DNA from: Pomacea canaliculata
Taxonomy: Eukaryota > Mollusca > Gastropoda > Architaenioglossa > Ampullariidae
Length of the DNA: 64,000 nucleotides
Direction of reading: 5' to 3'
NCBI RefSeq assembly: GCF_003073045.1
Contig: NC_037599.1
Location: 20,526,555 to 20,590,554, forward strand
Positions 10,773-47,176 of the stretch are shown here, piece by piece (position 1 is the stretch's first letter; each line of letters opens with the position of its first letter). The notes under the pieces are model-generated. The model saw nothing but the letters and a program-made list of their open reading frames with translations, did not search any database and had not been told where the DNA came from. The position numbers and the translations under genes are program-made.

Positions 10773-13700
10773 ATGAGAGAGGAAGAGTGGAGGAAGATTA
10801 AATCCTGTTATAAAAGGTTAATAGCTGAGCTCGACCTCAAAAGTGGAGCACCTTCTATCATTGACAGTCTGTATTCAGATGATGTTCTGACACATTATGA
10901 CAAGAATACCCTGGAAGATATCACGGTTCCTGAAGACAAAAACAGACGTCTACTTGATATTCTTCACACCAAAGATGATGGTGCCTACCGTAGTTTTGTT
11001 GAAGCAGTACGCAAAATCCAGCCACATATATCCGAAATGCTACAACCCCCAGGATTTCCTCGAGGAAGACATGGTGCAAGGCCAGGTTTGTTATATTTAC
11101 AGTCTCTGACCATCTAACCTTTGTGATTTGCAATCATAAGAGATGAAAAACTAGCATTTCACAAGGCATCCATGATAATTCCACCCAATCAGGTTTATTA
11201 TTTTTATCCTTAGCAAAATGCAAACTAAACAATACAGCATAAAAGTAGCAAATTAAAGATGCTATTGCCTAATAGAGCATTAAAAACAGCCTTTTTAATG
11301 TGAGGTAATCTATATTTTTCAGTATCAAAACTTTAGCATGATAGGTTGCAAGTTGACAATATCTGTGGTAAATTAGTGTAGGTAGTGTGCCTTAAGTTAA
11401 AGAAAATCAATAATATGAAGCTTAAACTTTAAGCTTAACTTAAAGTGGACATTTTTTTTATAATTTTATCTTTTCAGCAGTTCCACTGGCAGCTGCAAGA
11501 CACTTGAAGAGTTTTTCACTTGAAGAACTTCAGAAATGGTTTCAGCAAATCTTAGAGCAAGAAAAAGTCCCTGAGAATGTGATTACAAGTACTGTGGGAA
11601 CTATTGAAAAAGAAATGATAGATGGAGCAGTTTTCTTAGACATCTATCTATCTATCTATTCCTCTTCGTGCATCAGGTTGCACATAAGGCCTCAACCAGA
11701 GTCCGCCACCGATGTCGATCGGCTGAAACCCGCTCTAGGTGACCCCATGTCCAGCCCTTTCCTTTCATCTCCCTTTCCACTGTTCTTCTCCAAGTTTCCT
11801 TTGGGCGGCCTCGTTTTCTTCGGCCGTCTGGAGTCCATCGTAGGGCGACTCTGGAAAGGTCTGCTGTCTGCTGGCGGAGCACATGTCCATTTCATCGCCA
11901 ACGCCTTCGTTGAACTTGCGTGGTGATGGACTCGTTTCAGTTCTTCGTGGAGTTCTTCGTTGCTGATGGTATTTGGCCAAAAGATGTTAAGTATGCGCCT
12001 GAGGCATCTGTTTTGGAAGACGTCAAGCTTGTTACTGATGGTTTTGGTCATCTTCCAGGATTCTGATCCGTAAAGGAGGGTGCTGATCACATTTGACTTG
12101 AAGATTCTCAGTTTGATCTTCTGGCTGATGTTTTTGCCTTCCATGTGCTCCTGAGTGAGGCGAAGGCCTGGCTGGCTTTCGCCAGTCGGGCTCGAATCTC
12201 CACCTCCGCATCCCCTGTGTTTGACATTTTGGACCCAAGACAGGTGAAACTGTCAACTTCCTCAATCTCTTCTCCATTTAGTTTGATGCCGTCTTGGACT
12301 CTGGCGTTCACTCTCATACTTTTCGTTTTCTTTGTGCTGACCTTCAAGCCAAGGTTTCCAGCTGTTTCTGAGAAGGCCTTTGTTTTTTCATGCATGTCTT
12401 GGTGGCGGTGTGACAGCAGGGCAATGTCATCAGCAAAGTCCAAGTCTTCCAGCGTTGTTGTTGCTGTCATAGTCATGGTCCATCTGATCCCTCTCCTCTC
12501 GCTGTCGGTGGAAGTCTTCATGATCCAGTCCATGGCCAGGATGAAGAGGAACGGCGACAGAATGCAGCCCTGCTTCACCCCGGTACTGACGTTGAAGGGG
12601 TCTGTGAGCTCCGTGTCACAGACAACCTGGGATTTGAAATCGCTGTACAGCATTGCAATGACCTGAACAAGTTTTGCAGGGACTCCGTAATGCCTCAGGA
12701 TCTTCCATAAGGACTCGCGGTGGATGCTGTCAAAAGCCTTCTCCAGGTCGATGAAATTGATGTACAGCGGTGTGTTCCATTCGTTGCTCTGCTCCAGAAT
12801 CTGTCGCAGAATGAAGATGTGTTCGGAGCAGGATCGCCCAGGACGAAATCCTGCTTGCTGTGGTCGGAGGTCTTTCTCAAGAGTTGCCGTCAGTCTTGAC
12901 AAAACAATCTTGCTGAAGACCTTGCTGGTGAGGGAAAGAAGTGTTATGCCCCTCCAATTATTGCAGTCTCCAAGATCTCCTTTCTTGGGTAACTTGAAGA
13001 TGAGCCCTGTCTTCCAAGCAACAGGGAGCTGCCCTGATTCCCAAACTTGCTTGAAGATTTCAGTCAGCTTGGGAGCTGTCACATTTATATCTGCTTTCAA
13101 CATCTCTGCTGTTATTCCATCTGCCCCTGGTGCTTTGCCGCTCTTCATTGTCTTGACTGCTGCTGTCACTTCTTCCAGGCTTGGTGGGTCTGTGCAGATG
13201 TCAAGGTCTATAGCTGCTGGCTGGATGTCTGCAAGCTGAGGGGGATCTGGTCTGTTCAGAACCGACTCAAAATGTTCCTTCCAGCGCTGTAGTTTTTCTG
13301 CCTCTCCCTCGATGACATTACCGTTCACGTCTTTCACTGGCACATCACTGTTCTTAAACCCGTTGTTGAGCTGTTTGTTTATCTTGTACAGTGTCTTCAG
13401 GTCATTTTTACTTGCTGCATTTTCTGCTTCATCTGCCAGTTTCTCTATGTGGTCTCTTTTGTCAGTTCTTGCCATCCTCTTTACCTCTTTGTTTAGTTTT
13501 CTTAGACATGACTGAAAAAGAAATGAAGGAAATTTTCACTGAGCTCCGATTTGGTCCCATGAAGAAACTTTTAAAGGCAAGAGATCAGTTTGTGAAAGAT
13601 GAAGATGCTAACAGATTACAAGAAATCTGCAAAAACAAGTCTTCCCTCCAAAGAACTGAATATGTTCGGGAGTTTGGCCATGAGCCTTCAGTATTTGAAA

Positions 13701-16700
13701 GCTATCAGAAGGGGAAAATTCTTAACAAGCATGAAGAGCGTACTGGTAATCTTATCAGCCCAGTTCGGCAGTTTTTCCCTTGTCTCTCAGAGTCTCCTAT
13801 GAATATCTCTGAATACATTGCAGATAAAGTCACAGAGTTTTCTGCAGCTTGTCTGAATGACAGAACAAATGGCACAATATACTTTGGAATTGGAGATGTA
13901 GATTGTGAACAATTTGTTTATGGAGAAGTGGTGGGAATACTCCTTGATAAGAAAGAATGTGAAGATGCTGTTAGACTGTCAATCAAGAGAAGATTCTCTG
14001 AGGAAGCTAGTGAAACAGCACTACGTTGCATCAAACCACCATTTTTCATGCATGTGAGAGATACTGACTTTGTCAGTGATGACCACCTGTTTGTCTGTGA
14101 GGTGGATATAGAGCCCAGAAGTGACTGGGTAAAGGATCAAGCCTTCTTTATCAGTTTTCCTTTATCACCAGTGATGGCTAAATCTGAAAATGCAGATGAA
14201 AAAGGGCCTTTGCTGTATCGATTCACTGCTGGCATTCCAACAAAACAAGATGCAAAACAAGTAGAGAAATTTTCTGCGGAAAAATTGCAGCTGACCAAGG
14301 ACAGATGTCAGCAAGAAAAGTCTTTATCTAGCATATCCCGTAAGAATTTGGTTGAGACTCTGAAGGACTGCATGTGTGGTGTTGGGGACAAGCTGGAGGG
14401 TACGTTTTATCGAATACTTGCCACCCCATCCATAAATGTGTCTCATCCAGACTTCTCACTCAATTTCCAGTTTATTTTCAATGTTGACTGGAGATGCATT
14501 CTTGACTTTGACCCAAAGAGTGATGAAAGTGGGCTGTATGGTTATGCTGACAATGACAAAAAACAAGTTTACAGTCTAAAGACACCAGACAGCTTTCTTT
14601 CATCTCCCACTGCTGATAGCAATCAGACAAGAACCTGGTATGAAAATCAGCTTCAAGATCTGATGGAATCCCCCTACGGACAATGGATATTCTGCAATGG
14701 CTACGCTACAGCAAAAGATGAGGGGCTTCAAGTTCTTCAGTGGAAGCAGAAAAGAAGTGAAGGTTACAGAGAGACTGTTCGATTATTGAAACAAAGCATC
14801 CCAAAGAGAAGAGCTGTCATTCTCATTCTGGTCACATCCCATGATGATGTTTTCATAGAAGCTTCAGAAGACCTGATCCTAAAATTTGAGAACCAGTGGC
14901 TAATGATTGCTGAATGCAGAAGGTTGGCAGATGCATGGATTGATGGTTTGAAGAAAAGGAATGTAATTATTGACAAAGATAGATGTATCTGTGAATTTTC
15001 TTTCTCAGAGGTAAATAAGGCCATTGCTCAGCTGTTGGGAGCTGGGGTCACAGCTGAAGGTGTGTGTGTAGTAGCAACCACTTCTGGAACACAGGAAACA
15101 CTAACCAAACAGATGCAGCAGGAACTTTGTGATTTGGATATTGTTAGTGTCAATCAGTGTTGTAATGCAACTAGCCTCTCTAAAGAAGAAGTTAATAAAC
15201 TAAGCATGGAAACTGAAGATAATTTCTACAAAGGTAACACTGCAACCTGGTGGAACTTCCACTTTCAAGGTCATGTTTGTCAGCGGGACAGGTATGAACA
15301 CCTTCTCACTTACACTACAGAAACTCTGAATGGAGAGTATGTTCCAGAAAATGAAAACATAGGGCGTGTTGCCATCTACCATCAGCCTGGAGCAGGGGGC
15401 ACTACAGTTGCTTTGAATGTTCTGTGGGATCTTAAGTCAAAATATAAATGTTGTCGAATCCAAAGAATCACTAAAGATACAGCAAGACAGATCTTTACTC
15501 TATATGAGCTTGGGGAACATCACCAAAACGGCAAAAACCCTGTGCTTGTGATGGTGGACAATGAAGATGACGATAAAGTCATTGATCTAAGGAAAAACAT
15601 TGAAGAGGAATGCGATGCTAGAGGAATAAGTGAAATTATCTGTGTGTTTTTGTTATGCATTCGGAGAATAAGTGTGCCTCAAGAACATGAAAAGAAAAAA
15701 ATCATTTTATTGCATAAACTTAGCCAGCGTGAATGCCATTTTTTCCTGGATAAGTACAAAATACTGATGGAGCGGTATTCTCACAGTAAAGACAGAGTAA
15801 ATCCTGACAGCCTTCTTGGGCTAAACATAATGAAGGCAAATTTCAGTGAAGATTACATAAAAAGGACTGTGAAACTGCTGCTTGAAGTGTTTCAGGATGG
15901 AAAAGAGAAGACAGTTTTAAAGTACATTGCCTTGCTAAACCATTATGATCTTTCTTTTCGAGGTATTCCAGTCACTTGCTTTGATCCCCTGATGGGCCAT
16001 AGATCACAAAAGACATGGGAGGTGTGTATGCCAGACCAGCCTCTACTGACATACACCTACAATATGCACCTGTCTGGAAGAACCAAGTGCCTTCGCATTA
16101 GCTGCCAGCTCCTCTGCAAATACATATTAGACATCAGCTTAGATGAAGATAAGTCTCATGGCGATTTGATGGAGGAGCTTCTCTGTGGTCCTGTCATCCG
16201 TCGGCTTCAAACTGATGTTGCTTACCAGGAGCTTCTTATTATCATCAAAGAAATTATGAAGAAAAGATTCTGGACAGATGAGCAAACACGCTCAACATTT
16301 TCACCTTTTATACAGAATCTATTTGAGGAAAAAGAATATGACCTTGCTACCATATGCATGAAACTTTCATTTGAACGCACATTTGACCCTATGCTTGCTC
16401 AACATCTGGCTCGCTTCTACATCTGCTGCAAGAACTGGAAGGAAGCTGAAACATGGGCTGATAAAGCCATAGAAATTTGTCCAAAGAATTCTTTTTTGTG
16501 GGACACCAAAGGGCAAGTTTCAAAATTCCGTCTGATAGAAATACTTAATGAATGCGAAGCAAGTCAGAGTTCAGTGACCCCTGATAAGGTAGAGGAGGCG
16601 ATACAATATGCACAGCAGGCTTTAGCTCATTTCAAGCAAGAGCAAAATCTGTGTACCAAAGAAGCACCTAACATGGCAGGCTACTTTGGTCAGATGGACA

Positions 16701-19700
16701 TAATTGTTTGTCTTATAAAGATCTTGAAATGCTGCAGCATCTTTCATTCATCATCAGAACTTCAAAGTTTCTTTTCGAACAGGACATTTGTACCAGCAGG
16801 AATGAAAAAGCTTGGGAAAGAGGTGGAATGGTTGAAGTCTTTGCAGGATCTGGCTTTTCAGTCCCTTAGATGTGTAGAAGATTGTGTGGAGCTGTATTCA
16901 GCATGTGCAGATGAGCATAGAGATTCTGCACAATCAAGATTTCTGAATGAGAGCAACCTGGATCGCTACAGGACTCTTTTTAACGGTCTTTTTGGGGAAG
17001 ATGACTTGTTGACAATAGACCCACAGAAAATGGATCCAGAGAAACGGAGGAGAGCTGTTCGCAAACTTGGAGGATGCTCCTTATTTAGCATCATGAAAAT
17101 GTACAGAGAACAGGATGGTAGAAATAATGTTTTCCGCATTAACATGCTAATGTCCCTGAATTTAAAGCTTCCAAAGAAGACCAGATTTGATTTGAGCATG
17201 GCCCTTGCTTCTGCCACCTGTCTGTGTAGTGATCTTGATCAACCAGATCAACAAAAATCTTATCTCACTCATGTTCTGGAGTGGTCAGCAGAACTGTGTA
17301 AAATGAAGGAAAAGCAGGAGTATATAGACCTTGATCCTTTTGTTTACTTTCTTGTTTTCCACTGGCCAACTCCAAACAGAAAATATCTTGATTGTCAGCC
17401 ATCAGAACTATATAATACCATGAACAAGGCAGTAGATGCATTTAAGAAGAAAGTACAACAAAATCCTGCATATCGCAAGAAAAATGTACCACTCTTCTTT
17501 CTCACAAACCTCAGAGAAAATGATAGCATTGTGTCTTATGATACACTGGCAGCCTGGGCAGGCACCAGCTTGAGAGGAATCCGTACAGTAAAGAAGCTTC
17601 TGAAGTCCCCACAAGCAATAAATTTACTGGAGAGATTTTCTGGAGTACTAGACAAGACTGGCTGGAAAGTGAGAGTCACACTGGAGAGTCAGCAAGGAAA
17701 CAAGATGGACTTGGACATACCTCTTTTCACAAGAGAGAACAGGCAGACACTGAAGATGAAGAGGGTGTTTTTTGCTCTTGGCTTTGGCCATGGAGGGCCT
17801 GTTGCATGTGATGTGGATTCCGACCGTCCGCAGCTCAACCTGTTGCATGGTACCACCCATCTTCCACTTCCCAGACATTTTCAGAACCGATCATCAGTAG
17901 TGGTTTATGACCAAAGAATTGATGAGATCATGAATAAAATCCACAGCCTTCAAGTATGTGGGCTACAAAGACAAGCTGTAAGTTTGGTTTTTGTCATTTT
18001 CTCATGTCAAGTTTTTTTCTTGTTCTTGTAACCCTTTCTGTGCATCATGCTTTGTTGGTTTAACATGAATTATAGCTGTTTCCAAAAATACAAAAGTAGC
18101 AGATTTGAGTAGCAATGCAGTTAAGTATTAGGATGAGGATGGGGAAAGTTTCAATATATTTTAGCACTAAAACATATCAGAAACATAAACAGATACGATG
18201 GCCTACAGTTCATTCCAGGCCAGGAAAATGTGTGCTTTAAGAAAAAATGCATAATTAAGCAGTGGAAAGACACCAGCTCAGAGGTTGAAACAAAGGTTAT
18301 GGTTTCCCAGCATCTTTTTTAACACCTGGTTGTCTTCTACACTGCTTCCAATACCCCTGTTCCCAAAAGAGTATTTGTAGTTGTTTTTTTTTTAACAAAA
18401 AGGTTGTTTAAAAATCATTTCTTATTTAAAGGCTTCTGTCTTTGTACACATTACAACTTTCTTTAGTCATCTGATAATTTTAAGTTTAAATCTCTTATCT
18501 TACTAACAATAATGTAAAGTACATGAAACCTGTTGTACACCAGAGTGTTGACTGATACATCAGCTGCAATATTACACTGGTATTGGCAGTACAACTTGGT
18601 ATTGCATCATGCTAGTCCAGTCTACTGCATACTTTAATTGTTAGACCTGTTTTATAACATCAGTCTCCTGAAATTCAAACCCCAGGTAAATGAAGCTTAC
18701 TGTGTATAATAGTACATACTGGGTTGCTGTACAATGACATAAAACTATTGACGAGGTGATTACCATTGTTTTATGTTTGGTAGACATAAATATAGAATTT
18801 TCAAATTCCGATGATTGGAAATATTAAGGAAAAGAAGAAAGGAAAAATCTACCTGTTTATATAACTTTTGTTGACATAACAAAAGTAAATAAGTATAGCC
18901 ATAAAAACTGACTTTTTATACAATTTCCTATTTCTATTTTTTAAAATGTAAACTGTTATAGACTGTACTTGATTTATTAAAATACACATATATAAACATG
19001 TTAATTAAAGTACTTTTTTATTCTTTTTATCATCTTCATGAGAAGTATGTCTAGAAATCTTTAGCCAAGCTCATACACACAGATTAGTACTGATGGGTTA
19101 TTCAATTTCCATCAGTTTGGAATAAATGGCACTGATTGATATACTTCATAATTTTATCTCCATTTCTGTACACAATTACAATTCTTTATTTACTAGGGGT
19201 AAAATAAGCAACTGACGTTTTTTTCCATTTAGCCCTCGCCCTTTACAGGGAAGGAAATTAACTATATAAATGAAGTAATTAAGCATGATAGAAAAAAATT
19301 GTAGTAAACATAAAGAAGGGTGGATATGTACAAGGTGATGGTTAAGAAGATAATAGATTATACAGATTATATAAGAAATATATAAGCATGCCTTTTTCTT
19401 ACCTTTTAACAGCTCTCACTTTTTTCTTGCAGACTCCGTGTTTGTCTTTTGTTAGCTACTGCTGCTGGAGAATGTTATGACAATTCTTACACAGCATCCT
19501 TGCAGTACATGCAACAGTCTTTAACTATTTCTTCTTCAGTAAGCAGTCAGTATTTACTGGCATACTTAAGACATGCTGGGGCTTCATTCCTAGATCATCA
19601 ACTGTTTCTAATTTATTAGCAACTGATTTGAGGTTATCAGCTTGTCTCATTTTAGTCTATATATGGTTTAGTTTAGTTTATTCCTTGTTACTTCTTGAGG

Positions 19701-21075
19701 AGCATAGGGCTGCAACAACATCTTGCCAGCAGGCCCGGTTAAGGGCAGCCCTCTTCAGTTTTGCCCATGTGATTCCGACATTCTTTGCCTCATTCTCTAC
19801 TGTTCTTTTCCAAGTCTACTTTGGTCTCCCAGTTCTCCTCTTCCCCTGAGGATTCCAGTCAAGTACCTGCCTAGCAATGGTGTCAGCTGGTTTGTGCAGG
19901 GTGTGTCCTATCCACCCCTATTTGCGCTTTTTTATGTCGTGGCTAATGACATTCTGGTTGGTTCTTTTCTACAGTCTGCTGTTGGAGATCTCTTCAGACC
20001 ATCTTATTCCCACAATATGGCATAGGCATTGGTTGGTAAAGGTCTGGAGCTTGTTGTTGATGGTGTCTGATGCTCTCCAGGTTTCAGAACCATACAGTAG
20101 GACAGCCTTCACATTGGTGTTGAAGATGTGGATCTTACTGTGGAAGGATAATGATCTGTTTCCAGGATGCTCTCTCCTTGAAGTTGGATCAGGAATTCCT
20201 GCTTGTTGATTCTCATCACTTCAGTCTCATCACTTCACTTTCTGTTGACCTTTAACCCAGTCTTCTCTGCTTCCTTCTAGCTTGCTCAGTTTGGTTTGTG
20301 CACGCTGCTGCCAATGAGAAAAGAGACTAATGTCATCAGCAAAGTCCAGGTCCTCTAGCTGTTTGGTGAAAGTCCACTGGATACTGTACGTTGTTGTCTT
20401 GAGTCATCTTGTGCATAATCCAGTCTATGACGATCAGGAAGATTGTCAGTGATAATATGCAGCCCTGTCTTACACCAGTCTTCATTACAAAAGGTTTGGT
20501 GAGTTTTCCATTGTGGATAACTTAGCAGGACGAGTACAACCCCTGGATAATGTTTATGAGCTTAGGCGGAATACCATAGTGAATCATCAGCCTCCAGATA
20601 ATGTCCATGTCTATACTGTCAAAGGTCTTCTGAAGGTCCACGAAGGTTATATAAAGGGAGGATTGCTACTCAGTAGACTGCTGAGTGATGATACAGAGGG
20701 TGGCAATGTGGTCAGTCCACAACCTACCCTGGTGAAACCCTGCTTGTTCTGGTCTCAGTCTTTTGTCTAGTGCCTTCTTCAATCTCTCTAGTATTACCCT
20801 TATCAGGACTTTGCTGGGGATGGATAGCAGCATGACTCCCCCCCCCCCACATCCATTTTAGTTTACAAAATCATTCTTGTTGTCATATCTATTTGAATAA
20901 TTGTGCAATGTTGTTTATTTTAAAATAAACATTAGTTTCTGTTGCTTCTCTATCATTGTTAATAACACATTTTCCTTTGCATCGTTTATTGCAGCATGTG
21001 GAACTTGGGAAGTTGCAGAGAGAACTGCAACACTGGCAGCATCTCCGCAGCAGACAACATCTTGAAACACTGTAA
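10773..21075 (+). CDS. SAMD9/SAMD9L-like protein with N-terminal CARD, copy A; SAM exon interrupted by a LINE
   Basis: Exons: 10773-11085 (CARD), 11478-17977 (giant exon, containing the LINE at 11644-13494) and 20995-21075 (last exon, H V E L G K... to TAA). Introns are phase 1 and phase 0. Start chosen because MREEEW aligns with MRQEEW and MRPEEW in copies B and C. Regions: CARD (DVLTHYDKN...[11 protein letters not shown]); SAM ([10 protein letters not shown], then [10 protein letters not shown] after the insert); AlbA_2/Schlafen-like ([20 protein letters not shown] near 13840, CEVDIEP near 14100); SIR2-like ([17 protein letters not shown] near 14815); P-loop NTPase with Walker A PGAGGTT at 15386-15406 and Walker B-like VLVMVDNED near 15545; TPR-like helices near 16390-16500; OB-fold-like strands near 17640-17740. 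Vertebrate SAMD9/9L are antiviral translation inhibitors with tRNA anticodon-nuclease activity in AlbA_2. The frame after the insert is fully open for about 1,490 codons. Expression may need splicing around the LINE. Confidence 0.75.
11478..11480 (+). promoter_or_regulatory. Tandem (NAGNAG) splice acceptor of the SAM exon in copy A
   Basis: TTTTCAGCAG offers acceptors ending at 11477 or 11480. Both keep the phase-1 join to the CARD exon, so use would add or drop one codon. Copies B and C have a single acceptor here. Confidence 0.4.
11644..13494 (-). mobile_element. 5'-truncated non-LTR retrotransposon (RTE-like RT) inserted in the SAM exon of copy A
   Basis: Flanked by the perfect 15-bp duplication AGTTTTCTTAGACAT (11629-11643 and 13495-13509). 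On the minus strand a 455-codon reverse transcriptase frame (13475-12108) carries the RT motifs [50 protein letters not shown] and FADDIALL, plus the downstream [11 protein letters not shown]. The C-terminal part (12144-11692, including [19 protein letters not shown] and W..LVEALC) continues in other frames after at least two frame shifts. There is no endonuclease domain, so the 5' end is truncated. The 3' end has a short (GATA)n-type tail (ATCT repeats on plus at 11641-11659), a habit of RTE-like elements. Clade is tentative. Confidence 0.9.
17978..20994 (+). other. Last intron of SAMD9-like copy A
   Basis: Donor GTAAGT at 17978 and acceptor TTATTGCAG ending at 20994 join two frames in phase 0. 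The first 1.6 kb is AT-rich with no recognisable element. The second half holds a decayed LINE (19660-20850). Confidence 0.65.
19660..20850 (-). mobile_element. Decayed non-LTR retrotransposon (same RT group as the SAM-exon insert) in the last intron of copy A
   Basis: Minus-strand translation across several frames shows RT motifs: QAGF near 20750, FDSIDMD near 20615, TGVRQGCIL near 20470 and a degraded ADDIS near 20335. An (AAACT)n-like tail lies at about 19665-19680. It has many stops and frame changes, so it is clearly older than the copy at 11644-13494. No target duplication could be defined by eye. Both ends are approximate. Confidence 0.75.
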
Positions 21076-21984: not shown

Positions 21985-22209
21985 AAGGTGACCAGACGCC
22001 CCGCATTTGGCGGGACAGTCCCGCTTTTGACCTCATGTCCCGCCTGAATATCGGGCGGGACACCCAATGTCCCGCTTTCTGGCTTTCTGGCAAGTCCATC
22101 AAATGTCCCGGTTGTCTTTAAAAATCACTTTTTTTGGCGTTCTTTGACGGTGATGACACCATCCTCGGCACGTGTCCCGCTTTCGCCCCCGAAACGTCTG
22201 GTCACCTTA
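21985..22209. mobile_element. MITE with perfect terminal inverted repeats (hAT-like)
   Basis: Starts AAGGTGACCAGACG and ends CGTCTGGTCACCTTA, so the ends are inverted copies. The flanks GATTAAGT at 21977-21984 and 22210-22217 are an 8-bp direct duplication, as hAT elements make. The interior has repeated TGTCCCGC/GCGGGACA words in both orientations and could fold into a long hairpin. No coding capacity. Confidence 0.8.
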
Positions 22210-29099: not shown

Positions 29100-32000
29100 T
29101 CACCAGGCGGGATTGTTGACTACCATCGAATGGCGTCGCTCGTGCAGACACTTAAGTCGACTTTCCAAAGCTTCTCTTTGGCTCTGAAACAAGTTAAACG
29201 ATAAATATTCCCTCTTCCTACTGCGGATCCTCGTAAAACAAACGCAGCGTACAAAGCCAAACATGTGATTTCTGAAGCAAATCGATTAATAGCTTAAGTG
29301 TATATAAATAATACAGCATATAAAAACTAAGTATGTGTATGCACCTGTGATTTATGTAAGAATAAGGGTCAGAAACATCACGTGACACAGGTTTATCCTT
29401 CGTTTAAATGTTTTTATATGCTTTGATTTATTTCATTACACACGCAAAAATACATTAAAGGTCTAGAAGAAGAAAGAATGAATGAGTGATGCATAAAATT
29501 AGTTTTTAATATATAAGCTTTTACAAACCGACCAGTGAAATGTGTCTGTGTGAGGGGGGATGGGGGTGGTGGTGAGTGAGTTAGAGATATATATAAAGAT
29601 AAAAATGTGTGTGAATATGGATATTATATTTTTAAAAATATCTGTAAAAATACCCCTTAGAGGGTGATAGATTAATAAAAGAATTGGTAAGTTGGTATCT
29701 TACTTGGTCTTTTGTCTCCTTTTGGAACGATTCCGTAGAATTAAGCTGTCTGACAACTTCTTCTATTTCCTGATCAACCTGCAATAGCTGATCGGGTAAA
29801 AATGACCGAGAGGTTTTTGGCAAGACGGCAGTTCTTTGGTGGAAAGGGAGAGGTCTGGGCAATTCTAAGTCGATGTCACAGGCAACTGGTCCTCCAAGTC
29901 CAAAGCCAAGTACGAAAAATACTCTTTTTCTGACTAAACTTTGTCTCGTCTCCTTTTTAAAGAGAGCAACATTAAGGTCTGCTTTGTTCCCTTCCGAGGT
30001 TGTGATTGTGACTGTTATGCTCATCCCATTTCTATCAAGCCGTCCTGAAAATCTTTTCAGATTGTCAACAGCCTTCGGTGACTTCACAAGTTTTGCGAGG
30101 TTAAACCTTCTTTGATTCCCTGCCCACTGGTACAATTGTTCTTTGCAGACGATGCTTCTTTCTGCTGGGTGCTTAGTGAGGAAATATAGAGGTGTATTCT
30201 TCTTTTGACCTTCTAATTTAGCATACTTTTTCTGGAAGAATTCTTTGGCCTGCTGTGCTGTCTTACTCAACATATCAATTTCAGCTTGATGTTGTAAATT
30301 CTGACGGTTCTCTGTGGGCCAATGAAAGAGAAGGAGATAGAGGAAGGGATCAAGGTCAATATATCGCTGATGCTGCTGATGTTGCCTTTTAGATATCAGT
30401 TCCTTAGACCACTTTAACAAATCAGTAAAGGGAATGTCGGTAGGGAGCACAGTACCTTCGTGACTACAGAGGCACAGGTAAGAGGCCAAAGCCATGTTAA
30501 GATCAAACGCATTGGTCGTACTTTCTTGCAGATTTGTTGACGCAAGAGTCAGAATTTTCTGGACATTTTCTTCGTTTTGTCTTTCAGAGTACAGTTGCGT
30601 GACGCTATACAAAGAATGACCCCCAAGCGTACGAACAGCTGTGCGTCGTCTTTCTGGATTCATGCCCATGGGGTCGCTATCAAAATGCTCATTTTCACTG
30701 AAGAGGTTACTCAGAATCGTTCTGTAACGACCAAGATGACTCTCGCTCAGAAAGATTTTACTCAGGGAATTGCTGAGCAGGTATTCCGAGTACAGAGCTC
30801 CTGCATCTTCAACACTTCTCAGGCAGTCTGTAAAACAACGTTGCAGAGATTTAAGCCAGGGGATGCATGTTTTGTCAGAAACCAGCTCTTCAGGAACGAA
30901 ACTGTCATCATTAAAAAAATTTTGAAACGTTGCCTCAGACCGGAAGACAGCAGAATGTTTCATGATTTTTAAGAGAGCCGTAATGACATCCATTTGACCA
31001 AAGTAGCCTGCCATGTTTGGAGGTACAGAGCGTTCGTTTTTACTCATCTCCACAACCTGTTGGAAAACTTTAAACCCTTTCTCTGCGCACTTGACAGCCT
31101 TATCAACCATCAACTGATCAACTGTACTGTGACTCTGCTCACACTCATCTCTCATCTCATGGAGCTGAAACTTAAAGACTTGTCCCCGAGTATCCCATAA
31201 GAAGGAATTTAGCCACCTTTGCTTAACTGCTGTTTCCGCCCATTTTTCAGCTTCGTCCCAGTTCTTACAGGAGATGTAAAACCGAGCAAGTTGTTGAGCA
31301 AGAATGGGGTCCTCAGAGTGTTCATAAACCATGATCATACACTGGGTAGCCTGTGTGAACCTCTTGGCGTCAAACAGCATCTGTATAAACGGTGAGAACT
31401 TGGACCGAACCCTGCTGTCTGTCCATTCTCTTTTCTTCATGATTTCATTCAGGATTTCTAGCAGCTTTTTCTGTGCAAAGTCAATTGCTCTCCGAAAGAC
31501 GGTGCTGTTTATGAATTCTTCCATGAGCTCACCATGACAATATCTTTCATTTGCACCTATATCCAAGATGTACTTGCATAGCAACTTACAACTGATTCTG
31601 AGTCTTTTGTACTGGCCTTTGTTATCTGTGACGGACGTGTAGGTAAGGAGAGGCGAACTTTTCAAGTCATTTTCCCAGTTTCGACGGTGCATTAGTTTAT
31701 CAAAGCAGGGCACTGGAATTCCCCGAAAGGAAACATCATACATATTTAAAAGTGCGGTATATTTCACGGCGACTCTCACTTTTTCATCGTTCGTTGCCTC
31801 CAGGATCGTCTTCACTGTCCTTCTAATGTAATCTTCGTTGAAATCCTCCTTCATGATGTTAAGTCCAAGCAAGCTGTCTGGATTTACTCTATCTTTGTTA
31901 TTTTTGTATTGTTCCTGAAGTTCAGCGTATTTGTCCAGAAAGAACTGCCGTTCTGAAAAACTCAGTTTTTGGTTCAGAAAAATATTTCTCACCTCAGGTT

Positions 32001-35000
32001 CGGATGGTAGCATCATGCGTTGTGTGCAAACAAGAAAGACGCAGACAATGTTTTGTATTGACCTTGCGTCGCATTCCTCCTCCAGATCTCTTTGAAGACT
32101 GTTGACATTCTCGTCATCCTCATTATCCAACATCACAAGAACTGGTTTTATGTGGTGGTCCGGATTTTCTCCGTGTTCATACAGTTTGAGGATTTGCCTT
32201 GCAGTTTCTCTTGCGATTTGTTTAATCCTGCAGCATTTGTATTCGGCCTTTAAATCCCACAATACGTTCATTGCAACTGTTGTGCCTCCAGCACCAGCTT
32301 GGTGATAGACAGCAACACGTCCAACGTTTGCATTGTCTGGGGCATCTTCACCTTTCAGCATTTCTCTAACATTTTTTAGAAGAAAGTTGTATACATTTCT
32401 AGGACAGACATGTGTTTTAAAATAAAAATTCAACCAAGATGCTGAATTTCCTTTGAAAAACTGTTCTTCAGCTTCCTTACTCAGTCGGCTTAAATCAATT
32501 TCAGCAGCTTCTAAATGACTGCATTGTTTTGCACTGACAATGTCCAGGTCACAGAGCTGCTGCTGTAGTTTTTTAGATACTTCTTCGTGTACACCGGTTG
32601 AAGTATTTACTAAACATATATCTTCTTTCAAATTTTCCGACCTGAGAAGTTGAGCGATGGCCTTGTTTACATCGGTAAACAAAAAATCACAAATGCATCT
32701 GTTTTTATCAACTCGCACATTTCTCCCCTGCACGCCTTTAATCCAAGCATATGCAAGCTTTTTGGACTGAGAGATCATAACCCACTGGTTTTTGAAACGC
32801 AAAAGAAGTTCTTCAGATGCATCAATGAAAACGTCATCATCTGAGGTCACTAGGATAAGGACAACAGCCCGATCCTCTGGAATGCTCTGTTGTAAAAATC
32901 TGACAGTTTCTTTGTAGCCTCCGCTCTTTTCTTCTTTCCACTGAAGGACATCAAAACCCCGGTCATTTTCTGCTTCAAGTCCATTGCAAAATATCCAAGA
33001 ATTGTGTCTAGACTCCATCATTTTGTCAAACGTTTCTTGTGGACTTCTTTGGTTTGGCTGCTCCCCAGACAAAGAGTCATTAAGAAAATCGTCTGTTGTC
33101 TTCAAGAGATAGACTTTCTCTTCCTTGTGTTCTGCATAGTAGTACAGACCTTTTTTGTCACTGCTGGGATCAAAATCGAGGACACACCTGAATTCTAATT
33201 TGAACAAGAACTGGAAAGATTGAGAAAACTCTGGGTCCTCAATATTTATCTTTGTTGTGGCAAGTATTCGGTAAAAGTTACCGTCCAGCATGTTTTCCCC
33301 TCCAAACATGTATTGTCCTAGTTTTGCAACTAAGCTGGGCAGCTCTCTGCGTTCTGATTGTTTTTCTTGCTGTTGTCTGTCTTTTGAAAGCTGTACTTTC
33401 TCAGTAGAGAATTTCTCAACCTGTCTAACATCTTGCGATTTTGGAACTCCTCCGCTTAGTCGATACAAAATAAGTTCTGAACTGCTCGCATCCAGTTTTG
33501 ACTTCACGAAGAAAGCATGATCTTGCTTAATCCAGTCACTTCTTGGCTCAATGTCTACTTCACACACAAAACGATCTTCGTCATCAACGCCTACAACAGG
33601 AACGAACACTGGTGGCTTGATGCATTTTTGAACAATTTCAATCATTTCTTCAGAAAATCGTCTCATTATTGAGAGCCTCACGGCATCCTCGCATTCCTTT
33701 TTGTCTAGAACAACCCCCAGAACCTCTCCATACGCGTAGCTCTCGCAAGCTACGTCTCCTATTCCAAAGTAGATGATGCCATTTGTTCTATCATTCAAAC
33801 ATGCCGACCCAAATATAGTGACTTCATCAGCAATGTGTTCATAGGCAAGACTGTCGTATGTACATGGGAGAAACTTACGGACTGGATGTATTAAGTTGCC
33901 AGCACGCTCTTCATGCTTGTTCAAAATTCTCCCCACGTGGTAAAATTCAGAAATGTCTGGAACACATCCAAATCCTCTTGCATACTCGGTTCTTTGGCGA
34001 GCTTGCCATTCAGAAGCAGGGGACTCCTGAAACGTATCATGGCATTCTCCGTGTAGGCACTGATCTCTTGCATGTAGAATCTTTTTCCTGGGGCCAAACT
34101 TAAGATCAGGGCAAAGTTTTTCAAGCTCAGAATCGGTGAGGTTTTCAAACACTTCTCCATCTACTTCTTGATCTCTAAAGATGTCTAGAACTGAGGAGGA
34201 AATGTTTCTTTCCTTTAAAATAGGCTTTAGCCATTCTTCTAGTTCTTCAACAGAAAATTTGCCCAAACATTTTGCTGTTGTCTGCTGCTGTGTTTGTCCT
34301 GCACAACAAAAATACCTAACTTTGGTATAAAGATACATGAAGCACCACAAACAAAAAGCAGTTTGTATAACTAACAAGATCTATAAATAAATTTAAGGTT
34401 CATATACATGAAAAATCTCAGAAGAATGCATTTTCACTCTTATGAATTGACAATAAAATTGCTACAATCGCAACTGTTCAATTGCACAATTTTAAGCCAA
34501 CGGGATTATTAAACAGTCTGATGAAAAAATACTGAATTATTCATGGGGTCCGGAAAGAACAGACCCAATACGAACTTGAAAGAGGCGATATGAAATGTTT
34601 TCGATAAAGCACGGAATACGACACGGAAAGCCAAGGGCGTGAAGGTCCAACAGAATATCTTTTTCCCAGGTAGGGTCGTATGCTTTCTCCAAAAAAGGAA
34701 TTTTCTAGTAAAATAGTGTAACTCAGCGGTTCTCAACCTTTTACTTGTGACGCCCCCCTGACGAACAAAGGTAGGTCCGCGCGCCCCCCTTAGCCAGCAA
34801 TGTAAGCTAATTTCACTAATACTGGTATAAGAAACTTTAAAAAAATTACCACCTTCGTGACCCCCTTGTAAGCACGTCCCCCCCCCCCCCAGGGAGGCGC
34901 GCCCCACAGGTTGAGAACCTCTGGTGTAACTTATTCTCTGCGTTCTATAAAAGCTTGATTTTTTTTTTTTAACCTTCGAAAAGATTTTTTTTACACGAAA

Positions 35001-35367
35001 GATTTGAATGTGTAGCAATTACAATTTTACAGTCGATAAATATTTTAAATATCAACAAACCTTGTCCTTTCCTTTGTCCTTTTTTATGAAGTCGTTCTGG
35101 TGATTGTAGCAACTCTGCAAGCGCAGGCTGAAACGAGTTCAGTGCATCCTTAAAATGAGCGTACGCTTCGTCATCTTTTGTTTGAAGTATATCCAGAAAA
35201 ATTTTGTTTTTCTCTTGATTAATTTTTTCCACTGAAATCCGGTTCTTGTCGAGATCTGTGAGGACACCCTTGCTGTACAGTCGGTCAACAATTCCATTAT
35301 CAAGATCAAGCTCTACAACGAGCCTCTCCCAGCATGCCTTAATTTTATTCCACTCTTCCTGCCTCAT
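29100..35367 (-). CDS. SAMD9/SAMD9L-like protein with N-terminal CARD, copy B (intact, 1,661 aa)
   Basis: Exons on the minus strand: 35367-35061 (CARD), 34298-29704 (giant exon) and 29183-29100 (SQREALESR... to TGA), with phase-1 and phase-0 introns and GT-AG ends. The frame is open throughout. Approximate residues: CARD 1-95 (VDRLYSKGVLTDLDKN, FLDILQTKDDEAY); SAM 112-182; AlbA_2/Schlafen-like 215-400 with [17 protein letters not shown] near 265 and FVCEVDIEP near 345; SIR2-like region around 570 (RAVVLILVTSDDDVFID); NTPase Walker A AGAGGTT near 769 and Walker B-like VLVMLDNED near 817; TPR-like helices from about 1098; OB-fold-like region near 1518. Vertebrate SAMD9/9L have the same order from SAM onward but no CARD. 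Expected role: cytosolic nucleic-acid or virus sensor whose AlbA_2 domain cleaves tRNA and blocks translation, with the CARD recruiting a partner. The role is inferred by homology. It is more diverged from A and C than these are from each other. Confidence 0.9.
34724..34923. mobile_element. hAT MITE in the CARD-SAM intron of copy B
   Basis: Inverted ends CAGCGGTTCTCAACC and GGTTGAGAACCTCTG are flanked by the perfect 8-bp duplication GTGTAACT (34716-34723 and 34924-34931). The first 70 and last 110 bases match the ends of the larger hAT at 8516-9287, so this is an internal deletion derivative of the same family. Confidence 0.9.
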
Positions 35368-37622: not shown

Positions 37623-38348
37623 CAGTCAAATCTCCCTACTATGCCACCCCTCTACTATGCCACTCTCGGTATTATGCCACTTTTGCTCGGTCCCGACTAT
37701 AAATTCAATGTAAAAAAAAATTTACTATGCCACCCCTACTCTCCCTACTATGCCACTTTTTTTGTGACTGTTAAAAGACACAAGTTGTAAAATTCCGCGC
37801 AGTGCTCGATTATTATACTGTACGGTAGTGTGGGACATCGCATTTAGGTGGATGGAACATAGCACGCACACAGGGAGGGTGGAGGCTGGCAATGTGGGGG
37901 GGGGTGGTCGCTAGCCGGGTGACAGTCACGTGACAGAGGGAAGGTGTGAGGGAGTCGACTAGCGACAGGATTCAGGTGCGCGGATGTGGTTGGGAGGGGT
38001 GGAGGATGAAGAGAGTGGGGAGAATGAGAGGAGACAGCTAGCGAAGCCGACGATTCTTGAGAGCTTTGGACCAGACCTGGGCAAAGGCCTCCTGTCTCTG
38101 ACCGGCCCGCCCGCCAGTATATATACTATATATACAGTATTGGGTAAAACTGAGTTAACTATATTAGTCCCGCCCTCTAAAACCATCCCAAGTCTCATGC
38201 GGCCCCTTAATTGCCCACCCCTGCTTTGGACTGACGGGTAACTTGAACAAATAAAGCCGTTTTTACGAACACTCTCTACTATGCCACTCTCGCTACTATG
38301 CCACTTTTGCTCGGTCCCGGTAGGTGGTATAGTAGGGAGATTTGACTG
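37623..38348. mobile_element. Pogo-type MITE (CAGTCAAATCTC family) nested in the Tigger element, copy 1
   Basis: Inverted ends CAGTCAAATCTCCCTACTAT and ATAGTAGGGAGATTTGACTG, flanked by TA. Subterminal CTACTATGCCAC words recur many times at both ends. It contains the hAT MITE at 38072-38223. A nearly equal-length copy in opposite orientation lies at 47177-47903. Confidence 0.85.
38072..38223. mobile_element. hAT MITE nested in the pogo MITE (copy 1)
   Basis: Ends CAGACCTGGGCAA and TTGCCCACCCCTG, with the 8-bp duplication CTTTGGAC at 38064-38071 and 38224-38231. It is the third layer of a three-level nest. Confidence 0.85.
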
Positions 38349-38548
38349 TATATTGCATTATAACTGTTCTCATTAAAACAAATACCTATATAGCCTGTAA
38401 CTTTCAAATAGCGAGTCAACAGGGGCTGGGAACCAATTAAATCTATTTCCTTTATTTCTTATGGAAAAAATTGTTTCGGATAACGAACATTTCGGTTAAC
38501 GAACAGCTTTCCAGAACGGATTAAGTTCGTTAACCGAGGTTCCACTGT

Positions 38549-39332: not shown

Positions 39333-39353
39333 ACTGAAGCGAAACTGAAAGTA
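39333..39353 (+). promoter_or_regulatory. ISRE/IRF-like element upstream of SAMD9-like copy C
   Basis: Core GAAACTGAAAGT at 39341-39352 is a textbook IRF/ISRE match. The whole 21-base block equals the site at 9671-9691 upstream of copy A except at two positions. It lies 343 bases before the donor of a probable 5' UTR exon (GTAAGT at 39696), which pairs with the acceptor GTTGCAG ending at 41015. Function is inferred. Confidence 0.55.
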
Positions 39354-41021: not shown

Positions 41022-44000
41022 ATGAGGCCAGAAGAGTGGAAGAAAATCAGGTCCTGCTGGGAAAGACTCGTTGAAGAGCTGGACCTTCAGCACGGTATGA
41101 TTGACCGCCTGTACGCCAATGGTGTTCTTTCAGACCTAGACAAGGGCAAGCTCTCACTGGAAAAAATTGACAGAGAAAAAAATCCAAGCTTTTTTGGAAA
41201 TACTCAAGAAGAAGCCTGATACAGCCTATGTTCGATTCACAGAAGCATTAAAGAGGTATCAACCGGATCTTCTCCAGATTCTACAGCCTCCAGGACGACC
41301 TCAGTCTAAGAGGGGATGTTGGGATGGACAAGGTTTGTTATTGTTCTGTTACTGGATTATTGATTCGTTGCTTCAAACTGCTGACTGAATTTTTTTTTTC
41401 TCACTGTCACTGTGCATGTTGACACAGTGGAAGAGGTAAACTGTAGATTTGCTAACTTAAGCTACAATGTGAGCAATAAATCAAATCTCTCACGAAGAAG
41501 AGTTAAAACAACCCAGAAAAAAGGCAACAAAAAGTAGACATGTTTGAAGTATAAATAATTAAAACTATTTAGATTTCCTGTCTTTTCCTTCCATGTCACA
41601 AATTATGTGGAAATTATGTCTTTACTTACAGAAATAACAAAAAAGTTGAATATAACTTCTTTCAGTCAGTAGGCAGTGGTGAAGTCCAGTCGTTTGATTG
41701 CAAATGTCGTGTAGTTATTGTTGTGTTAGTGGCAGTTTAATTTATCAAAATATGCACTCTACAAAACACATACTCAAAGTCTACAGCAATCCAAATCTTT
41801 TTTCTGCCTCATTTTCAAAATGCCAGCTCAGACTCTTGTACCAAGAGTTGCAAGAAACAGGCTATTTTACCAATCATTTTCGTGCGAATTGGTGTAATAA
41901 GTTACTTATCTGGTGTAATATATTTTATGCTTGGTGTAATATGGTTTATATTTTACATTTGCAGCATCAGCGGCATCGACAGCACCACAGGAATTCTTGA
42001 GAAATTTGACGGTTGCAGACCTGCAAAAACGGCTTCGGCCAGCTTTAGAACAAGAACATCTTGATGACAGTGTAATTGGAAGCATACTGGATGCTCTAGA
42101 GAAAGCAGGGATAGATGGAGAGGTTTTTTTAGAAATGACTGGAGAAGACTTCAAGGAAAATTTTCCTGAACTTATATTTGGTCACAGGAAGAAACTAATA
42201 ATTATAAGAGACCACTTTCTGAAAGACCAAGATCCTTATAAGTTGCAAGAAAATACTGATACTGAAGTAAAGAAAATTAAGCCATGCCTCCAAAGAACTG
42301 AATATGTTCGTGAATTTGGGCAGGAACCCACAACATTTCACAACTATCAAAAAGGAAAATATTTGAACAAGCATGAAGAACGTGCTGGAAATTTGATCAA
42401 TCCAGTTCGTCAGTTTTTCCCATGTAGCTTCAGAATCCACTGCTGACATTTGTGAGTACATTGCAGACAGAGTCACAGAATTTGCTGCAGCTTGTCTTAA
42501 TGACAGAACAAATGGAACAATCTACTTTGGCATTGGAGATACAGATTGTACCCATTTTGGTTATGGAGAAGTATTGGGAATAGTTGTTGATAAGAAGGAT
42601 TGTGAAGATGCTGTTAGATTGTCAACCACAAGAAGATTTTGTCCTGAGCTAAGAGAAACAGCACTGCATTGTATTAAACCACCAATTATAATCGACGTGA
42701 CAGATACCGACCATGTCAGCGATGACCCTCTGGTTGTCTGTGAGGTGGATGTTGAGCCTACAAGTGACTGGGTGAAGGATCATGCCTTCTTTATAAGCTC
42801 TCTTTCCTCATCAGCAACGGTTACATCAGAGAATACAAGTGAACATGATCTTCTACTGTACCGACTCAGTGCTGGAATTCCGACAAAGCAAGACTCAAAG
42901 CAAATAGAACAATTTTCTGGAGAGAAGTTGCAGCTGACCGAGGACAGACGCCGGCAGGAAAAGTCGTCCACAAGCGCTTGCCGTGAAAATTTGATTGAGA
43001 CACTTCAAGATTACATGTGTGGTGGAGGAGACAAACTCGAGGGGAATTTTTACCGAATACTTGCCACTCCATCCATGAATGTGTCTCACCCTGACTTCTC
43101 TCAAAATTTTCAGTTTATTTTCAACATGGACTGGAGATGCATCCTCGACTTTGATCCAGTTAGTGATAAGGATGGCTTGTATAGTTATGCTGAAAAAGAG
43201 AAAGAGCAAGTCTACAACAAGAAGACAACAAAAAATGTTATTCAATCCAGTGACGATCCCCAAGAAGAAAGGACATGCGAACAGTTTCAAGATCTGATGG
43301 AATCTCCACACAAACAGTGGATACTTTGCAACGGCTGTGCTTCAGATGGAGAAGAGGGGCTTCAGGTCATTGAGTGGAAGCAAAGAAGGAGCGAGGGATA
43401 TCGGGAGGTCGTTCGACTGTTAAAGAAAAGCATCCCAAAAGGCCGTGGTGTCATTCTCATTCTTGTTACATCCCACGATGACGTGTTCATCGAAGCATCT
43501 GAAGAGCTGTTGCTAAAATTTAAGAACCAGTGGCTCATGATTGCTGAATCCAAAAGATTTGCTGATGCTTGGGTTGAAGGCCTTAAGAAAAGGAACATGA
43601 ATATAGACGAAAACAGATGCATCTATAAATTTTCGTTCTTTGAGGTAAATAAGGCAGTCATTCAGTTGTTGGGATCTCCAGTACTCAGTGATGGTCAGTG
43701 TGTAGTAGCAACCACATCAGGAGTACAAACAGAACTGGGCAATAAAGTAAAGCAGGAGCTTTGCGATTTGGATGTCGTCAGTGCTGAGCAATGCAAGGAG
43801 GCTGAAAGTCTTCTGTGAATAAGGTCTGTGACCTGAGTTTGAAAACCGAGGAAAATTTCTACAAAGGTAACAGTGCCACCTGGTGGAACTTCTACTTCCA
43901 AGGTCATGTGTGCCGACGAGAAAGATATGAACGCCTTCTTGCATATACTAGGGAAGAACTGAAGAATGAATATGCCGTCGATCATCAAAATTTCAGGAAT

Positions 44001-47000
44001 GTTGAAATCTACCATCACCCAGGTGCAGGAGGAACTACAGTTGCCATGAATGTTCTTTGGGATCTGAAGTCGGCGTACAAATGTTGTCGGGTCAAAAGAA
44101 TCACCAAAGAAACTGCACGACAGATCTTTCAGCTATACGAACTCGGGGAGAGTCAGCGTGTTTATAGAAGCCCTGTGCTTGTAATGCTGGACAATGAAGA
44201 TGAGGAAAAGGTTGGCAGTCTCAAGAAGTTTATTGATGAAGAATGTGACAGAAGGGGATTAAATACAGTTGTGTGTGTCTTTTTGTCATGCCTTCGGAGG
44301 ATGAATTTGTCTGAGGAGCATGAGAGGACAAATGTAGTCCTAACTCAGAAACTTAGCCAGCGTGAGGTCCAGTTCTTTCTGGACAAGTATGAAACACTTA
44401 AACAGAAATTCACTGACAGTAAAGGCGGGACTAATCCCGATAGCCTCCTTGGACTCAATATTATGAAGGAAAATTTCAATGAAGATTACATAGAAAGGAC
44501 AGTGAAAATGCTGCTTGAAGAGTTTCAGGAAGGAAAAGAGAAGACGGTCTTGAAGTATGTCGCACTGCTAAACCATTATGATCTTTCATTCCAAGGTATT
44601 CCACTCTCCTGCTTTGATCCCCTCATGGTCCATGATTCTCCCAAAGTTTGGGATGTGCATATGCCAGCCTATCCTCTGTTGACTTTTACTTACAACATGC
44701 ACCTATCTGGAAGAACAAAGTGTCTTCGGATCAGCTGCCATCTTCTTTGCAAATATATATTAGACATCAGTTTGGACAATGGACAGTCTCATGGTGACTT
44801 GATGGAGGAGTTTCTCTGGGGTCCTATCATCCAGAGGTCTAAACGTGATGTTGCATATCGGGAGCTTCTTCGTATTGTGAACGAAATTATGAAAAAGAGA
44901 TGCTGGGCTGATGACAAGACAAGGTCAAAATTCTCTCCTTTCATACAGAGCCTGATTGCTGAAGACAAGTACGAAAGTGCTGCCAAATGCATGGAGCTCG
45001 TCTTTGAACATACAGATGACCCCATGCTTGCCCAACAGATGGCTCGCTTTTTCAGCAGCTGTAACAATTGGGATAATGCAGTAAAATGGGCTGATAAAGC
45101 CATCGAAAAATTGCCACAGAATTGCTACCTGCTGGACACCAAAGGACAAATTTCAAAGTCCCGTCTTTCTGAGCTACTGAAGGAATGTGAAAGAAATAGA
45201 GGCTCAGCCAACCCTGAGATACTACAGGAGGCTGTAAGATATGCACAGCAAGGTCTTTCTGATTTCAGTGACGAACAAAGAGTGTGTTGTAAGGAAACTT
45301 TTGTTGCACCCAATATGGCAGGTTGCTTTGGCCAGATGGATATAATTATGCTTCTTGTAAAGATCTTAAAATGCTGCTGTGTCTTTCAGTCAGCATCAGC
45401 ACTACAAAGATTCTTTTCAGACAGGGAGTTCATTCCAGAAAATCTAAAAATAATCAGAGAACATGTACTATGGTTGAAATCCATCCAAGAGCATGCCATT
45501 CAAGCCTTAAGATCAGCAGAAGATGGCGTGGAACTGTATTCAGGAAATGAGTATGGGCATTCTGCACATTCAATATTTCTAAGTGAAGGTAATCTTGATC
45601 GTTACAGAAATCTTCTGAAAAATCTTTTTGATGAAGATGATTTGCTTAAGATGGATGTACAGAAAATGAATCCTGGACAAAGGAGGAGATTGGTTTGTAA
45701 ACTTGGGGGATATTCATTATTCAGCATAATGAAAATATACAGAGAACGGAATGGTAGAAAAAATGTTTTCTTCATAAACAAACTCATGACCTTAAATTTA
45801 GAACGTTCAAACTGGAACAGATTTGATTTGAGCATGGCTCTTGCCTCTGCCATTTGTCTGTGTAGCGATATTGGCGACCCATCTGAACAAAAACCCTATC
45901 TCAGCTCTGTCCTAAAGTGGTCAGCAGAATTATGCAGAATAAAAGAACAGCAGGAATACATAGACCTTGATCCTTTTGTGTACTTTCTTGTTTTCTATTG
46001 GCCATCTCCAAGCAGAACGCTTCTTGATTGTCATCCACAAAAGCTTTATAGAATGATGAAACAGGCAGATGATGCATTTAAAAAGAAACTGCAGCAAGTC
46101 CCTGGATGTAGAAAGAGAAACCTGCCACTATTCTTTCTCACTAAACTCCCTGCAGATAATAGTATTGTATCCCGAGAAAGGCTGGCAGCCTTGGCAGGCA
46201 CAGACTTCAGGGGAGTCCACAGAGTAAATAGGCTGTTGAAGTCGCCACAAGCATTGAATCTACTGGAAAGATTTTCTGGGGTACTAGACAACACTGGCTG
46301 GAACGTGAAAGTCATGCTGGAAGATAGGCAAGGGAAGAAGATGGACTTAAACATTCCTGTTTTCACAAGAGAGAATAAACAGAGGATGATTGTGTCTTTT
46401 GTTCTTGGCTTTGGCCCTGGAGGACCGATTGCATGTGACATTGATTCCAGCCCTCCACATCAATGTGATGATCAACAGGACCATTATACCACACATCCTT
46501 TTGGTCCAAGACAGTTTTACCCAGAGTCTCCTCGATCACATCCATGTGATGATCAACAGGACCATTATACCACACATCCTTTTGGTCCAAGACAGTTTTA
46601 CCCAGAGTCTCCTCGATCAGTAGAAGCCTATGACATTGATAAGATAATGCAAGAAATTTGGGAAGTAAGGGCTATCATTGCAAGCAGATCATCACTTACA
46701 AGAGAAGAGGCAAGTTTGATCACAATGTTAGTTATAGCTTCTCGTGTTTAGTTTTCTTCTTGTTGCGTATTCTTTTTTAGATTCAACACAGCCATCTCCC
46801 AACATTTTCTTGCCAAAACCGTTCCTGTCACTATTACTTTAAGTTTTGGGCTAATTTACCTAGCACACTATGTTCCAACTGAAGAAGTTTTACAGGATGA
46901 TTTTTGAAACTTTGTATGATGTGGCTTCTTTGTTTCCATGATTATCCAGTTTATTTAGCCATTACTGGATAATATTTGTATATTAGCAATACTTGGGGAC

Positions 47001-47106
47001 TATATTGATAATTGCCTTCGGCATCTAATTGCAGCGCAACAGAGTCAGGAATTTGCCAGCCTTGGAAAGAATCATACAAAGGCACCGTGGCAGCATCAGA
47101 TACTAA
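41022..47106 (+). CDS. SAMD9/SAMD9L-like protein with N-terminal CARD, copy C (three frame shifts)
   Basis: Exons: 41022-41332 (CARD, MRPEEWKKI...), 41965-46709 (giant exon) and 47035-47106 (RNRVRNLPALE... to TAA). Domain order is the same as copy B: SAM (LTVADLQKRLRP), AlbA_2 ([20 protein letters not shown] near 42480; CEVDVEP near 42740), SIR2-like ([17 protein letters not shown] near 43445), Walker A PGAGGTT near 44020-44040, Walker B-like VLVMLDNED near 44175, TPR-like near 45020-45140, OB-fold-like near 46290-46370. By eye it is much closer to copy A than to B. Three single-base frame changes interrupt it: an extra A in the A7 run at 41175-41181, one surplus base near 42426, and one missing base near 43813. 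The long open frames between them suggest either very recent decay or assembly errors. The last intron begins with GC (AG|GCAAGT at 46710). Confidence 0.75.
46458..46619 (+). repeat. 81-bp in-frame tandem duplication near the C-terminus of copy C
   Basis: Two units, 46458-46538 and 46539-46619, differ at one base. Each encodes 27 residues containing CDDQQDHYTTHPFGPRQ and FYPESPRS. Copies A and B have a single, shorter linker in this position. The duplication keeps the reading frame. Confidence 0.95.
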
Positions 47107-47176
47107 AAGCATGCAGAATCAACAGTGAATGGGCAACCCACTCAGTGATACAACAGACATTTATTCTTTTCTATTA

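Follow-up and report, generated by a model that had tools for sequence, protein, structure and literature searches.

The window analysed here, a 64-kb stretch of DNA without N, carries a SAMD9-family locus with CARD and SAM domains, in which one of three copies (copy B) is intact. In fact, the longest stop-to-stop frames of the window are the three SAMD9-like bodies, found at 13370-18031 (+) for copy A, 29632-34380 (-) for copy B, and 42397-43818 together with 43806-46751 (+) for copy C, and each of them has a CARD exon upstream (Table 1). The initial annotation had described three CARD-SAMD9 proteins; the three CARD exons upstream of the bodies are indeed present, but only copy B is intact, as copy A is split by a LINE and copy C is broken in frame.

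As had been proposed, a phase-1 intron is predicted to join the CARD exon to the giant exon. Putative donors with (C/A)AG before GTTTGTT follow the CARD in all three copies, the three acceptors are AG, and the predicted introns of A, B, and C (392, 762, and 632 bp) are in phase 1 on both sides. In copy B, the putative 35061/34298 junction leads into an open frame. The corresponding stop-to-stop frame, P0001, has 1582 codons, the first 28 of which are at or upstream of the acceptor, such that copy B is open for about 1,554 codons counted from the acceptor.

Table 1. Features of the CARD-SAMD9 cluster, in positions of the window.
Feature	Positions	Strand	Evidence or remark
Copy A exon 1: CARD	10773..11085	+	Pfam CARD; phase 1
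Copy A exon 2, left piece: start of SAM, ending at the LINE	11478..11643	+	tblastn with P0001, E 5e-4
LINE fragment within the SAM of copy A	11644..13494	-	RVT_1 121.3 bits; 15-bp target-site duplications; ATAG-repeat tail
Copy A right piece: SAM end, AlbA_2 to OB, open until stop	13495..18031	+	open frame; SAMD9 match
Copy B exon 2: SAM, AlbA_2, SIR2-like, STAND P-loop, TPR, OB	29632..34298	-	unbroken to stop
Copy B P-loop, Gly instead of Lys, upstream His retained	32272..32304	-	sequence; published SAMD9-family signature
Copy B AlbA_2 (tRNase-SA-like), altered active site	33514..33912	-	7ksp match; residue map
Copy B SAM domain	34066..34254	-	SAM_2 profile, fold model, Foldseek
Copy B intron 1, phase 1, 762 bp (predicted)	34299..35060	-	GTTTGT donor, TTTTTGTTGTGCAG acceptor
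Copy B exon 1: CARD, 102 codons + 1 base, donor 35061/35060	35061..35367	-	Pfam CARD; phase 1
Copy C exon 1: CARD across two frames, break near 41191-41195	41022..41332	+	sub-cut-off CARD; similarity to B
Copy C exon 2: SAMD9-like body, split over three frames (breaks near 42426-42454 and 43806-43833)	41965..46751	+	

The cluster is followed downstream by exons of a BTB-BACK-Kelch gene at 51733-55293 (BTB 79, BACK 59, and Kelch_1 39 bits). A dispersed repeat is present in two copies, at 37962-38357 (-) and at 47129-47800 (+, just beyond copy C), with translations that look alike by eye. The stretch 8772-9038 (-), which we take to be similar to the C-terminal portion of a hAT-type transposase, gave no match in a Pfam search at E 0.01, and neither a tRNA nor an Rfam match at gathering score was found in the whole window.

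The assignment of the CARD in copies A and B by sequence profiles is strong. The first exon of copy B, for which a death fold had been suggested, scored 52.7 bits with Pfam CARD (E 4.5e-14), and that of copy A 45.7 bits (E 6.6e-12), against a cut-off of 23.9; these E values rule out a chance match. The score of copy C (19.4 bits, below the same cut-off) is that of its first frame piece, with the second piece left out, and its CARD is 64% identical to that of B over 58 aa. Using phmmer against solved structures, the CARD of copy B retrieved the CARDs of RAIDD, CARD8, and Apaf-1 with weak E values (4e-4 to 6e-3), a range that also holds a designed protein (7e-4) and an F5/8-type protein (3e-3). 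The AlphaFold model of the CARD, obtained from a three-row alignment, has six helices, but its mean pLDDT is just 52.6; three of the nine fold matches of this low-confidence model were CARDs, the best one (CARD9) at E 0.93. With such a poor model, the CARD call rests on the sequence profiles. A search of the 64-kb window for CARD partners using the CARD of copy B returned only the three copies and one 7-residue chance match.

Exon 2 of copy B aligns with human SAMD9 (9zjr) across P0001 residues 157-1505 (E 3.5e-73), and in this alignment it has the AlbA_2, SIR2-like, P-loop, TPR, and OB order of the SAMD9-family core; the segment 13493-14500 of copy A matches human SAMD9 on its own (E 1.2e-14). 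With Pfam alone, AlbA_2 and TPR in copy B, and TPR and nSTAND in copy A, remained sub-threshold. The AlbA_2 of copy B reached 13 bits against a cut-off of 25.3; however, it matched the SAMD9 tRNase structure 7ksp at E 5e-14. The SAM domain of copy B was detected by SAM_2 with 27.9 bits (E 2.7e-6), that of copy C scored 19.2 bits, just under the cut-off of 20.5, and the left piece of the copy A SAM had no Pfam match by itself. A model spanning SAM and AlbA_2 of copy B has pLDDT values of 79-93 in blocks of ten over the first 70 residues and is confident in the SAM part only. Among the best 50 of 147 Foldseek matches of the copy B SAM, SAM domains came on top with a probability of 1.00 and a TMt of up to 0.87; the best E value was 8e-3, and none was at or below 0.001. 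The P-loops read HQAGAGGTT (B), HQPGAGGTT (A), and HHPGAGGTT (C), with Gly in the place of Lys and the upstream His kept. The replacement of Lys by Gly is a signature of the SAMD9 family, according to the available passages of PMC5445408.

PADLOC models of bacterial defence systems did not match P0001 or P0002 at E 0.1. A scan of viral contigs with P0001, run with six patterns of which one derived from the intron-derived start of P0001, found no relative (seven stretches fitted a pattern and none was confirmed), and one scan of public genome contigs with the A1 query gave no relative either (112 fitted a pattern, none confirmed).

We then considered the tRNase site. According to the available parts of PMC12331169 and PMC13245274, catalysis by human SAMD9 tRNase-SA needs E184, E196, E218, and D241, which form a putative metal site, and binding needs K198, K214, and R221. 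The residue numbering follows 7ksp, which was assigned to residues 156-385, with the start at 156 deduced from its length of 230 residues, and it agrees with the human letters printed in the accessible text at all eight positions checked. E184 and D241 are retained in the three copies, whereas E196 is replaced in every one of them (Q in A, K in B, Q in C) and E218 is retained in B only (K in A, R in C). As for the basic residues, K198 has become F, L, and F in A, B, and C, K214 has become Y, H, and Y, and R221 has become E, I, and E. Copy B thus has three of the four acidic residues, A and C have two, and no copy has any of the three basic ones, which falls short of what human SAMD9 tRNase-SA needs. 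Identity to the human sequence along the tRNase stretch is 34-38% overall and 23-30% at charged human positions, such that the site is not preferentially kept.

Based on these replacements, the AlbA_2 domain of B and its relatives has probably lost, or strongly altered, tRNA cutting of the human SAMD9 type, and the Schlafen-like nuclease shutting off translation, as put forward in the initial annotation, is not supported. The loss of residues is no proof of inactivity, since rabbit SAMD9 is active although the charge is reversed where human SAMD9 has R221 (PMC12331169/PMC13245274, in the passages available). A KHEER motif is conserved across the copies and might provide alternative acidic residues.

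Copies A and C, the siblings of B, are both disrupted by now, as far as this assembly shows. In copy A, the SAM domain is split by a minus-strand LINE fragment flanked by a perfect 15-bp duplication (11629-11643 and 13495-13509). An ordinary intron as the origin of this 1.85-kb gap is ruled out by the flanking duplication and by the reverse transcriptase that it encodes on the other strand. The RT frame has 475 codons from stop to stop (12108-13535, -) and extends slightly beyond the insert, and the C-terminal part of the LINE (11695-12252) sits in another frame, so that the LINE as such is not intact. The insertion looks rather young, given its perfect duplication and its long open RT frame. 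The LINE matched DUF6451 below threshold (23.7 bits against 28), and LINEs of the DUF6451-like type presumably favour an invertebrate host. By eye, a second short stretch, 19972-20220 (-), resembles the end of the same LINE type.

The frame of copy C is broken in three places, by a single base each time, and one of these breaks is inside the CARD. One break adjoins a T run and two lie away from runs of at least five bases; both decay and assembly error are possible. Near the C-terminal end of copy C, at 46456-46619, an 81-bp unit (a multiple of three) is tandemly duplicated with a 98% match.

The bodies of A and C carry the trace of purifying selection. Between A and C, dN/dS was 0.35 in AlbA_2 (95% 0.19-0.60; 133 codons), 0.17 in the linker plus SIR2 (95% 0.11-0.26; 317 codons), and 0.25 in NTPase-TPR-OB (95% 0.20-0.31; 860 codons), which indicates a long-standing constraint on the body, the altered AlbA_2 included. 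These values are those of the A-C pair; the synonymous distances of the bodies to copy B are saturated.

The CARD exon does not follow the body in all respects. Along the body, amino-acid identity is highest between A and C (0.65-0.70, against 0.52-0.57 for A-B and 0.49-0.55 for B-C). In the CARD exon (96-97 codons, with the pieces of C pooled), identity is 0.49 for A-B, 0.47 for A-C, and 0.58 for B-C, and the proportion of synonymous differences is 0.66, 0.82, and 0.64, respectively. The synonymous difference of the CARD between A and C exceeds that of all 1201 overlapping 95-column windows of the body (maximum 0.695), in a comparison made with overlapping windows and a short exon. By contrast, the similarity of the B and C CARDs lies within the range found along the body, which rules out a recent exchange between these two CARDs; the outlier is the A-C synonymous difference. 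B-C synonymous difference was lower than A-C in 37 of the 374 AlbA-SIR2 windows and in none of the other 827 body windows, and B-C identity was higher than A-C in one of the 1201 windows of 95 columns and in 28 of the 1180 windows of 57 columns. When the 57 CARD columns were bootstrapped, B-C identity exceeded A-C in 99% of the replicates and A-B in 90%. In the left piece of the SAM, A-C identity is lower still than in the CARD (0.39 over 49 codons) with a body-like synonymous difference of 0.50; low identity is therefore not special to the CARD, and it is at synonymous sites only that this exon points to a separate history. We regard this as suggestive of a history of its own for the CARD exon in A or C, be it by an exchange via the intron or in some other way.

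Our reading of copy B, to which we give about an even chance, is that of an animal gene with two exons, a SAMD9-family member with CARD and SAM at the N-terminus, encoding a STAND sensor and scaffold that would signal via its CARD, with the tRNase activity probably lost or strongly changed. At rest, the protein would be held closed by autoinhibition; a trigger sensed via the C-terminal half would open it, and the opened protein would oligomerise through its NTPase-like core and SAM. The CARDs clustered in this way would recruit a CARD partner, either a caspase or an adaptor, such that the CARD and not the nuclease is the likely output. Of the CARD-coupled SAMD9 sensor envisaged initially, the CARD-STAND architecture is present in intact B and the apoptosome-like logic is reasonable; it is the half concerning translation shutoff by the nuclease that lacks support. 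A broader version is tentative and, on balance, doubtful: an effector switch, in which the tRNase of CARD-bearing SAMD9 members would be a non-cutting module for structure or sensing and the output would have passed to the CARD, carried on its own exon as a phase-1 cassette that tandem paralogues can exchange.

The reading of copy B has to be weighed against other explanations. A nuclease that is still active and coupled to the CARD, where CARD or SAM clusters the protein, AlbA_2 cuts tRNA, and translation stops, would agree with the homology of AlbA_2 to the SAMD9 tRNase, its purifying selection in the A-C pair, the E184 and D241 kept in the three copies with E218 in B, and the tolerance of rabbit SAMD9 to change at the R221 position in the published text available; however, no copy has kept E196 or any of the three essential basic residues, and we consider this explanation unlikely. 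Similarly improbable is a decaying cluster of paralogues, the remnants of a SAMD9 expansion with at most B still expressed. The LINE-split A and the three frame breaks of C are what it would predict, but copy B is open over its whole length from the acceptor, the dN/dS of 0.17-0.35 speaks of long constraint, and the breaks of C are of single bases, one beside a T run, and may be assembly errors.

The CARD exon could also belong to a separate gene, for example a CARD-only adaptor, and not be spliced to the SAMD9-like exon. Order, strand, short spacing, donor, and matching phase are common to the three copies, and fusions of CARD with SAMD9 are reported elsewhere in the available passages of PMC5445408, which makes a separate gene very improbable even though, at synonymous sites, the CARD exon of A and C departs from the pattern of the body.

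Returning to copy B as a proposed CARD-signalling member of the SAMD9 family, the suspicion that similar invertebrate fusions had already been noted was correct. Mekhedov, Makarova and Koonin (2017; PMC5445408), in the passages available, describe SAMD9-family proteins of fish and invertebrates with DEATH-superfamily domains, CARD included, and predict an apoptosome-like role for proteins of this family. Like copy B, the proteins described there have a core of AlbA_2, SIR2-like, P-loop (Gly in the place of Lys), TPR, and OB, and the CARD is among their N-terminal adaptors. In contrast, the same passages state that SAM is limited to vertebrates, with DEATH domains "instead" and SAM plus Pyrin in a fish subfamily, whereas CARD and SAM occur together here; the combination may be drawn in Fig. 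1 or the supplements of that paper. What goes beyond its available passages is the union of CARD with SAM in a single protein, together with the condition of the tRNase site. No CARD and SAM in one SAMD9 protein, and no loss of the tRNase site in a CARD-bearing SAMD9, was recognised in titles and abstract starts among the matches listed, and a search on SAMD9 cryo-EM, autoinhibition, and STAND gave no match; most subscription papers lie outside the scope of these searches. As CARD-SAMD9 is already published, what is gained here is a variant along with a test, and not a new system.

Other known systems share parts of this architecture. Human SAMD9 and SAMD9L have the core domain order of copy B but no CARD in the published domain schemes available to us (PMC12331169, PMC13245274), and the catalytic and basic tRNase residues of human SAMD9 are largely changed in the copies described here. 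Apaf-1 and CARD-NLRs, like copy B, combine a CARD with a STAND-type NTPase, and the Apaf-1 CARD was among the weak sequence matches. Where copy B has TPR-OB at its C-terminal end, they carry WD40 or LRR; the P-loop of copy B is without Lys, and SAM, AlbA_2, and SIR2-like domains are added. Bacterial Avs5 is similar to human SAMD9 by Foldseek and contains Sir2 and nSTAND3, with no CARD described in the accessible part of PMC12931631, unlike copy B. Genes annotated as SAMD9 also appear in expression studies of Aplysia (PMC8195618) and abalone (PMC5405107), as far as the available passages of these papers go.

If the host is an invertebrate, the SAM found here would run against the statement, in the available passages of PMC5445408, that this domain is limited to vertebrates. 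If the effector switch is true, SAMD9 would have relatives that resemble inflammasomes or apoptosomes and signal without tRNA cutting. SAMD9 itself is an antiviral and disease protein that blocks translation and of whose active form little is understood, and a natural relative with a CARD and a changed nuclease separates its two proposed outputs, the recruitment of a partner and the cutting of tRNA. As a CARD-SAMD9 protein, copy B would make the apoptosome-like prediction of 2017 directly testable.
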